Shown: in pieces, positions 18,061 through 40,751 of the stretch
How the letters are laid out: the number at the start of each line of letters is the position of its first letter
How positions within the stretch are numbered: position 1 is the stretch's first letter
NCBI GenBank assembly: GCA_005239175.1
Contig: ML241294.1
Span: 817,275-881,274 of the forward strand
Source: a halophilic archaeon SHRA6
GTDB taxonomy: Archaea > Halobacteriota > Halobacteria > Halobacteriales > Haloferacaceae
DNA length: 64,000 bases
Direction of reading: 5' to 3'
The notes under the pieces: generated by a model
Told to the model about the DNA's origin: nothing
Database searches by the model: none
The model's input: the letters and a program-made list of their open reading frames with translations, nothing else
Made by a program: the position numbers and the translations under genes

Positions 18061-18435
18061 ATGAGCAACGAGGACCCGGGACCGTTTCCGATCGACGGCC
18101 AACCGCTGCTTTTGGCTGGCGCAAAGGCAAGCCTCGCACCGAGCCGGCTGCCAAAGCTGCTCGCAGACGTCCAACGGTACCTCAGCGGAGAGCTGGAGAC
18201 GTATCGTCGCTCATATGAGCAAATCTACGCTGACGACGATCGTGAGGTGTTTGTGGTGCCGAGCGACCACTGGGAGTCGATCGGCGAGGCCTGCGACTTG
18301 GACCGCCGCGAGACCGACGGCGTCCGCCGTGGCCACGTCGAACAGTTCCGGCGGCTCGGTTCGACGACCGATCGTCGCGAGGAGTTCGAGACGACGCTCG
18401 AGATTAGAAGTGTCGTGGTTATTGGCTGTAGCTGA
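18061..18435 (+). CDS. hypothetical protein, third gene of the SAMP-like cluster
   Basis: The ATG at 18061 follows the previous stop by one base. The 124-residue product (MSNEDPGPFPIDGQPLLLAGAKASLAPSRL) is charged and probably helical (LLADVQRYLSGELETYRRSYEQIY), with a short hydrophobic tail ending LEIRSVVVIGCS. No known motif is seen. The last codons and stop (TGA at 18433-18435) form the first unit of the downstream tandem-repeat array, so the C-terminus may have been altered by repeat expansion. Confidence 0.65.
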   Translation: MSNEDPGPFPIDGQPLLLAGAKASLAPSRLPKLLADVQRYLSGELETYRRSYEQIYADDDREVFVVPSDHWESIGEACDLDRRETDGVRRGHVEQFRRLGSTTDRREEFETTLEIRSVVVIGCS

Positions 18436-18600
18436 GCGGCCCGAATAGAGTGAGAAGCAGAGCGGTCCGATTGGACTGTGGAGCCGAGTGGTCCGATCGG
18501 AACGAGGAGCCGAGCGGCCCGATTGAAACGAGGAGCCGAGCGGACCGATTGAAACGAGGAGCCGAGCGGACCGATTGGACTGTGGAGCCGAGCGGCCAAC
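18430..18600. repeat. 26/27-bp tandem repeat array seeded on a gene 3' end
   Basis: Six to seven degenerate head-to-tail units occupy the gap between the 18061 gene and azlC. Units begin at about 18430, 18454, 18481, 18507, 18533, 18559 and 18585. The core is GAGCCGAGCGGCCCGATT, with tails alternating between GAAACGAG and GGACTGTG. The first unit includes the upstream gene's stop codon. The 26-base period is not a multiple of three, which argues against a coding repeat. There are no unique spacers, so it is not CRISPR. Confidence 0.85.
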
Positions 18601-18667
18601 CGACAGCCCTGCCGGCGATCGCCGCAGGGATCGGCAGCGTTTCATGTATCGACACGGGATCTCGAAT

Positions 18668-19366
18668 ATGGACCGTCGATTCCCCCATCCGGATCTGCTC
18701 GCCGGGATCCGTGTGTCTGGACCAATCCTCCTCGGTATCATTCCGTTTGCGCTGGTCGCCGGGATCTCTGCAGCCAACGCCGGAATGACGGTCATCGAGG
18801 CGGTGGGAATGTCGGTGTTCGTGTTTGCGGGTGCCTCACAGCTCGCAGCGATCGACCTCATCGACTCGAACGCGCCCTTCGTCGTCGTCGTCGCGACCGC
18901 AGTGATCATCAACGTGCGAATGCTCATGTACTCGGCCTCGATCGCGCCGTATTTTCAGGCATTTTCGACGCGGGTTCGGGCGCTGTTGGCGTACGTACTG
19001 ACTGACCAGGCATACGCCATGTCCGTCGCCGAATACGAGCGGACACCGGATCGCAACCGGCTGTGGTACTACACTGGAATCGGGTTCACCCTGTGGATCG
19101 TCTGGCAGCTCGGCACGTTCGCCGGTGCGGTTATCGGGGCTGGGGTTCCCGAGGCGCTCGGGCTCGAATTCGCGCTTCCGCTCGTCTTTCTCGCACTCTT
19201 GGTGCCCGCGATGAAGGATCGTGGGACCACGACTGCGGCGATCGTTGCGGGTGCGGTCGGGTTAGGCGCCGCTGTCGCCGGCGTCCCACTGAGTCTCGAT
19301 CTTCCGATCGCCGCAGTGTGTGGCATCCTCGCGGGTGTCACTGTCGACGCATGGAGGAACATATGA
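18668..19366 (+). CDS. azlC: AzlC-type branched-chain amino-acid exporter, large subunit
   Basis: The ATG at 18668 (MDRRFPHPDLLAGIRVSG) begins 232 residues with the AzlC layout: GPILLGIIPFALVAGI, FVFAGASQLAAIDLI, then NVRMLMYSASIAPYF and LTDQAYAMSV, which are diagnostic family segments. About seven to eight membrane helices are visible. It pairs with the overlapping azlD (ATGA). AzlCD complexes export branched-chain amino acids or analogues; the substrate here is unknown. Longer starts at 18575 or 18644 would read from the repeat array and are unlikely. Confidence 0.9.
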   Translation: MDRRFPHPDLLAGIRVSGPILLGIIPFALVAGISAANAGMTVIEAVGMSVFVFAGASQLAAIDLIDSNAPFVVVVATAVIINVRMLMYSASIAPYFQAFSTRVRALLAYVLTDQAYAMSVAEYERTPDRNRLWYYTGIGFTLWIVWQLGTFAGAVIGAGVPEALGLEFALPLVFLALLVPAMKDRGTTTAAIVAGAVGLGAAVAGVPLSLDLPIAAVCGILAGVTVDAWRNI

Positions 19367-30266: not shown

Positions 30267-30387
30267 GATCAACAGACGCCCGCACGTTCAAGTAGGGCCG
30301 TCGGGCGATCAACAGACGCCTGTATGCGCAAGGAGGGACTCAGGCGATCACCGGACGCCTGCACGCTCAAGCAGGGCGTTCGCCCGA
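30267..30387. repeat. 39/40-bp tandem repeats overlapping the 3' end of the deaminase gene
   Basis: Three units begin at GATC 30267, 30307 and 30346. The third unit is the coding end of the deaminase gene on the minus strand. Read on the minus strand, the outermost copy again spells ALLERAGV followed by a stop, so the gene's last codons plus stop have been copied downstream. The middle copy has diverged. Confidence 0.8.
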
Positions 30388-39718: not shown

Positions 39719-40309
39719 ATGCTCATCACGCTCGAGGGCCTCGACGGGAGCGGCAAGACGACCGTCTGGGAGGCGCTACATGCCACGTATCCCGAGGCGG
39801 TCTTTACCCGCGAGCCGACTGATTCGTGGTACGGCGAGGCCGTTCAGCGGTCGATCGACGACGACGGGGCAGATCCACTCGCAGGCCTGTTTTTGTTCAC
39901 CGCCGATCACGCCGATCACCTCTCGCGGGTAATTCGACCAGCGCTTGCAGACGACGAACTCGTGATCTCCGATCGATATTCGGATTCACGATATGCCTAT
40001 CAGGGCGCGGCGCTCACAGAGACTGACCTCGCCCGCCCGATGGAGTATATCAAAGGAGTGCACCAGGCATTTAGTCGGACGCCCGATCTGACGCTGTATC
40101 TCGACATCGATCCCGAACTTGCTGCGGCTCGCAGCGGCTCGACAAACAAATACGAGCAGGTGTCACATCTCACGGCGGTGCAGGAAAACTACGAACGATT
40201 GATCAGCGCCGAACCAGGACGGTTCGTCCGAATCGACGCCACCAACCCCCCCGAGACGGTGATCGACCACGCCGAGGCGTCGATCGAGCGGTTCCGCGCA
40301 GAACAGTAA
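39719..40309 (+). CDS. tmk: thymidylate kinase
   Basis: This 196-residue kinase starts [34 protein letters not shown]. The P-loop GLDGSGKTT, an [16 protein letters not shown](Y/H)-type motif, and [17 protein letters not shown] are diagnostic. It phosphorylates dTMP to dTDP. The 3' end (RAEQ and stop) forms the first unit of the downstream tandem-repeat array. Confidence 0.9.
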
Positions 40310-40436
40310 CACGCAGCTATCGATTACCACTACCGCACAGAACAATAACACGCAGCTATCGATCCTAAACACGCAGCGATCGATTACCACTACCGCGCAG
40401 CGATCGTCACACTACCGCGCAGCGATCGTCACACTA
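40294..40436. repeat. tandem repeats bridging two convergent gene 3' ends
   Basis: Five degenerate units begin at 40294, 40333, 40369, 40393 and 40415. Units 1 and 2 share CCGC(G/A)CAGAACA(G/A)TAACACGC, while units 4 and 5 are identical over 22 bases. The tmk stop sits in unit 1 and the stop of the convergent membrane gene (40434-40436) in unit 5. There are no spacers. Confidence 0.82.
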
Positions 40437-40751
40437 CCGCGGTTCCGGGAGATCGACGTTTTCGGGCGCTGGGATGTACAACACGTCGATCGTGAATCCG
40501 ATCGCGAGCGGGAGGCCGATCATCACACCCAGCGCGACCGTCGAACTCCCGAGGTTGATTCCGATTCCGAGGACGCCGGTGAAAACCAGCGTCGAGATGA
40601 AGAGAACGACTGGGATGAAAAACGCGGTGAAAAACAGCCAGCCGCCGGTGGTCTCGAGTCGAATGCGGAAGAATCGGGTCATGACCGCCGAAAGGAACGT
40701 GTGGACGACTAACACGAAGACGAAGAGCACGACACCGATCACGGAAGCCAT
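40434..40751 (-). CDS. small three- to four-helix membrane protein
   Basis: This 105-residue protein starts MASVIGVVLFVFVLVVHTFLSAVMTRFF and has strongly hydrophobic segments separated by a short Arg/Thr loop (RIRLETTGG). It ends in an acidic/Pro tail ENVDLPEPR. The family is not recognised with confidence. It is convergent with tmk across the repeat array. Confidence 0.7.
   Translation of the reverse strand: MASVIGVVLFVFVLVVHTFLSAVMTRFFRIRLETTGGWLFFTAFFIPVVLFISTLVFTGVLGIGINLGSSTVALGVMIGLPLAIGFTIDVLYIPAPENVDLPEPR

Follow-up and report, generated by a model that had tools for sequence, protein, structure and literature searches.

A 26-bp tandem array starts at the stop codon of P0001

In the halophilic archaeon SHRA6, the 124-amino-acid gene P0001 ends inside the first unit of a 26-bp tandem array, which we analyzed within a 64,000-nucleotide stretch of contig ML241294.1 (the window; positions given without a contig name refer to it). 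Taken by itself, the array is an ordinary minisatellite, a known kind of repeat, and we consider it most probably a neutral variable-number tandem repeat (VNTR) lodged in a gene-end spacer. Its copy number differs from that of the sister species, and in the 2.31 Mb surveyed of the 3.36-Mb haloarchaeal genome around it, tandem arrays overlap stop codons far more often than start codons.

The array comprises six full 26-bp units (18430-18585) and a 12-bp partial copy (18586-18597), i.e., 26 bp x 6.4. An earlier note, made by reading the window, had described six to seven units of 26/27 bp after the gene, the first of them containing the stop codon; the unit number and the position of the stop were borne out, and all full units proved to be exactly 26 bp long.

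18430-18455, + strand: unit 1, AGCTGAGCGGCCCGAATAGAGTGAGA, the most diverged of the units
18433-18435, + strand: TGA stop of P0001, positions 4-6 of unit 1, at the same position in the sister species
18456-18481, + strand: unit 2, AGCAGAGCGGTCCGATTGGACTGTGG
18482-18507, + strand: unit 3, AGCCGAGTGGTCCGATCGGAACGAGG
18508-18533, + strand: unit 4, AGCCGAGCGGCCCGATTGAAACGAGG
18534-18559, + strand: unit 5, AGCCGAGCGGACCGATTGAAACGAGG, 1 difference from unit 4
18560-18585, + strand: unit 6, AGCCGAGCGGACCGATTGGACTGTGG, 2 differences from unit 2
18586-18597, + strand: partial unit 7, AGCCGAGCGGCC

Tandem Repeats Finder (TRF) gave the array a score of 204, whereas 40 shuffled windows (2.56 Mb) yielded 7 arrays with a top score of 89, and the unit had zero matches in dinucleotide shuffles. 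These shuffle controls exclude a chance origin. The units lie head to tail without spacers and fall in the ~10-100 bp range of minisatellites and VNTRs, and the copy number differs at the same site in related genomes, a comparison that is between species only.

Copy number differs between the sister species

The sister species is Halalkalirubrum salinum, and the nearest named genome found was H. salinum N1521 (G001). At the orthologous locus it has the same stop, a recognizable unit 1, three further units, and the same end, giving ~4.4 copies compared with ~6.4 here; its unit 1 is interrupted by a 102-bp insertion resembling a miniature inverted-repeat transposable element (MITE) (L066; G001:C41:57345-57446). 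Units differ little within a species (1 base between units 4 and 5 here, 3 bases between units 2 and 3 of the sister) and by 5-14 bases between species, a pattern typical of units copied anew at the site once the two species had separated. No array was present at the locus in the next nearest relative in the search (G008), a member of a more distant genus.

The earlier note had also reported the same design at 30267 and 40294, and both of these arrays are indeed anchored on gene 3' ends.

30267-30377: second array, 39 bp x 2.8, the third copy of which holds the stop of an amidohydrolase gene
30348-30350, - strand: stop of the amidohydrolase gene, within the third copy of the second array
About 40294-40441: third array, compound 22/39-bp units, beginning with the 3' end of a thymidylate-kinase gene
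40307-40309: TAA stop of the thymidylate-kinase gene, inside the first copy of the third array

When other arrays were compared with the sister species, four of six differed in copy number or were absent there, and two were unchanged. The second array has 2.8 copies here and ~1.8 in the sister, and the third is absent from it. On contig C2, the array at C2:779678 has 5.1 copies here and corresponds to a single-copy 51-bp stretch in the sister, and that at C2:809024 has 2.8 copies here and less than one there.

The MITE-like element of H. salinum has inverted ends of about ATAGTAGCGTTTGCAATT and many relatives in both genomes, among them approximately nine near-full-length ones (72-87% identity) in contigs C1 and C2 of SHRA6.

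Tandem arrays overlap stop codons throughout the genome

We surveyed contigs C1 and C2 (2.31 Mb of the genome) with TRF and obtained 311 merged arrays with mutually different, unrelated units, about 166-167 of them mostly noncoding. At gene boundaries, 61 of the noncoding arrays overlapped a stop alone and 3 a start alone, and a single array overlapped both (62 stop and 4 start overlaps), compared with 23 ± 5 stop-only and 33 ± 5 start-only overlaps expected from random noncoding placement. The enrichment of tandem repeats at stop codons, for which the earlier note had proposed a genome scan, is thus present. Proximal array edges were almost absent from the last 20 bp before starts and became commoner beyond 20-40 bp, and they ran flat at ~1 per kb from 20 bp inside the coding sequence (CDS) to 40-60 bp past the stop.

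Inside genes, arrays follow the reading frame. The periods of the 145 coding arrays fell 137/4/4 into mod-3 classes 0/1/2, compared with 60/54/52 for the 166 noncoding arrays. Since coding arrays are nearly all in frame and noncoding ones are not, selection filters the arrays that lie in genes. Stop-overlapping arrays had a median of 0.61 unit within the CDS and a maximum of 1.5, so the stop lies in or beside the original copy; this share of CDS is as expected if only arrays that keep the stop intact survive.

We also considered whether the stop arose by frameshift, the array truncating a longer frame. This origin was rejected, given that stop-overlapping arrays hold at most 1.5 units of CDS and that P0001 homologues lacking an array can be aligned with it up to ~2 residues from its C terminus.

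The top-scoring stop-overlapping array of the survey (G000:C1:1216486-1216805) is 26 bp x 12.3 with a 98% match and is probably very young.

Tolerance probably accounts for most arrays at gene ends

The earlier note had suggested that a general process acts at gene ends. The gene-end pattern is real, but a special process is not required for most arrays. In a tolerance model, arrays have no attraction to stops and are merely barred from gene bodies (unless the stop survives intact in the first copy) and from the 40-60 bp before starts (padding). For spacers of ≤150 bp, which contain 91 of the 166 arrays, this model expects 50-58 stop overlaps, and 56 were observed. With this padding, the short spacers, where most arrays lie, need no hot spot.

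Several points weigh against a reading by tolerance. The number of stop overlaps exceeds the expectation once longer spacers are included (60 observed versus 45-51 expected for spacers of ≤250 bp, 62 versus 41-45 for spacers of ≤400 bp with 40-60 bp padding, and 62 versus 27 for all spacers), so a modest true preference for gene ends may exist. The padding was picked after seeing where edges rise before starts, and the fit depends on this choice, with 20 bp of padding giving 40 expected versus 56 observed overlaps in short spacers. The genes themselves were called with a home-made, codon-usage-based script. The density of arrays, 72 noncoding arrays per Mb, is also a feature that tolerance leaves unexplained. 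The comparative scarcity of arrays in long spacers could reflect either unannotated function within them or a genuine hot spot at gene ends, and the data fit both.

A mutational hot spot would mean that a process at transcript 3' ends, such as termination, R-loops, or replication-transcription conflict, makes tandem duplications beyond what tolerance provides. Besides the excess over all spacers, the edge rate argues for it, being 0.8-1.3 per kb between -20 and +40 relative to stops and, on average, well below 0.5 deeper in the same spacers. However, the excess is gone when spacers are ≤150 bp long, the array rate of long spacers may be lowered by regulatory DNA and unannotated genes within them, and arrays in stop-free divergent spacers are fewer but far from absent (0.35 per kb versus 0.55-0.61 per kb). 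We consider such a hot spot unlikely.

The density of 72 noncoding arrays per Mb compares with 32 in the sister species (348-kb sample), 16 in short loci of relatives (125 kb), 13 in a Natronococcus megaplasmid (300 kb), and 10 in Escherichia coli (300 kb), although these samples are small and the sister genome is a draft of 60 contigs whose assembly may have collapsed repeats. It is conceivable, if doubtful, that this lineage is prone throughout its genome to tandem duplications of ~20-40 bp, at several times the level of the other sampled prokaryotes, and that a real excess at transcript 3' ends ties duplication to the termination of transcription.

Origin of the array

Partial end units of at least 4 bp were found in 37 of 67 clean arrays, compared with 1.6% expected for blunt duplication, and such remnants are expected when short direct repeats slip or recombine with each other. 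In the focal array, AGCTGAGCGGCC at its start and AGCCGAGCGGCC at its end may be the direct-repeat pair of the first slippage, a pairing that we infer. Among the three mechanisms that the earlier note had offered, replication slippage fits best, given the partial end units and the change in copy number between species; duplication of a terminator and an unknown element are disfavored.

A minisatellite history would run as follows. In the ancestor of this species and H. salinum, a 26-bp stretch reaching from the last bases of P0001, including its stop, into the spacer would have been duplicated when short, imperfect direct repeats slipped or recombined unequally. Further copying and partial homogenization would then have proceeded separately in each species. 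The array would persist as nearly neutral, its first copy retaining the original stop and its end lying before the azlC start and the probable promoter, presumably with no effect on azlC. The same mutation would occur throughout this repeat-rich genome, with selection removing insertions within genes (unless in frame) and ahead of start codons. Between the final codons of a gene and the promoter that follows, arrays would be tolerated, and they would then be seen at gene 3' ends.

Flanking genes and possible functions of the array

18061-18435, + strand: P0001, 124-aa gene conserved across haloarchaea and often adjoining azlC
18633-18645, + strand: GACAG..GTTTC-like stretch, GGCAGCGTTTCAT, with a similar stretch before azlC in many relatives (by eye)
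18668-19366, + strand: azlC-like transporter gene, so named on the basis of sequence and of a match to an annotated AzlC on a Natrinema plasmid

P0001 matched no Pfam or NCBIfam family or model, and homologues were found in 65 of the 99 genomes searched. In 19 of the 36 P0001 loci compared, azlC follows the P0001 homologue (L066 and L095 among the 19 being one H. salinum locus counted twice). The azlC start at 18668 agrees with the sister species, where no ATG corresponds to the upstream one at 18644. The spacer between the two genes is 232 bp in this genome and 27-134 bp in 14 of 16 other loci with the pair (292 bp in L080 and 260 bp in L083), both species of this genus being left aside in that comparison. 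The array stops before the GACAG..GTTTC-like stretch, a candidate promoter element that may serve azlC.

This arrangement raises the question of whether the number of units tunes azlC, be it by spacing, by RNA structure, or by protein binding, in the way reported for ETR-F, where array length correlates with fpg1 mRNA (PMC2734929). The array does lie between two genes that are frequent neighbors, the sister species differ in copy number, and the predicted RNA fold of the array is better than that of shuffles (z -4.3). However, the sister array does not share this fold (z -0.24), and a conserved RNA structure was rejected; the sister tolerates the MITE-like insertion within its array; and relatives with the gene pair have mostly short spacers and no array. 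A regulatory VNTR is accordingly a rather improbable explanation. A known RNA family was also rejected, as Rfam gave no match above the gathering score for the array.

In a further alternative, the copies would multiply a signal for transcription termination or RNA 3' processing. The arrays do sit just after stops, within the range of haloarchaeal 3' untranslated regions, which have a median of 58-97 nucleotides in Haloferax volcanii (PMC7237163). Intergenic termination in that species uses T stretches (PMC7237163), but TTTT in the gene sense occurs in only 3 of 63 stop-overlapping arrays, compared with 25% of array-free 3' windows, and the focal array has no T-tract and may sit inside an operon. 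Duplication of a terminator or 3'-untranslated-region element is thus very unlikely.

Finally, a mobile or self-spreading repeat element (such as one resembling mycobacterial interspersed repetitive units) or a remnant of clustered regularly interspaced short palindromic repeats (CRISPR) might explain the many arrays in one genome, but it can practically be dismissed, since the focal unit matches only its own locus in this genome and nothing in 59 relatives, other arrays have different sequences, single-copy or shorter sequence is seen at orthologous sister sites, and the units are contiguous without unique spacers between them, the last as the earlier note had argued in setting CRISPR aside.

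Comparison with known systems

The closest parallels are tandem repeats that vary between relatives. In the Borg archaeal extrachromosomal elements (PMC9879509), repeats likewise have unrelated unit sequences, change rapidly between relatives, are flanked by partial repeats, and have unit lengths divisible by three inside genes. In contrast to the arrays described here, Borg units are perfect and A-rich; ours are diverged and not A-rich, and the contig that carries them, 1.08 Mb long, belongs to a cellular genome. The ETR-F (VNTR3239) array between rnc and fpg1 of Mycobacterium tuberculosis (PMC2734929) also fills a stop-to-start spacer and varies in copy number, and outside the complex the two genes are separated by just a short spacer. 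Its sequence is unrelated to that of the focal array, and its length correlates with downstream expression, whereas the focal array is known from sequence alone. In Haloquadratum walsbyi, the part of the report that bears on 'Indel_PolyRepeat', short tandem repeats whose copy number varies among strains, and on repeat-mediated deletions (PMC3119063) likewise describes haloarchaeal copy-number change at short direct repeats, although the cases given there are between strains, are mostly deletions between dispersed short repeats, and come without a gene-end analysis.

The genome-wide picture is more useful than the single array: there are 72 noncoding arrays per Mb with a clear stop/start asymmetry, and several have altered since the two sister species diverged. 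This genome and its sister form a natural system for studying the origin of tandem duplications and the places that tolerate them. The picture also warns against reading function into repeats that begin inside a stop codon, as much of the pattern is explained by survivorship.

The hexamer CGATCG occurs at 4.1 per kb in intergenic and 5.2 per kb in coding sequence of C1 and C2, compared with ~0.26 expected from intergenic base composition, an over-representation reminiscent of HIP1 in cyanobacteria. It reaches 11.6 per kb in array units, but a CGATCG-linked mechanism was rejected as not specific because the hexamer is common genome-wide.
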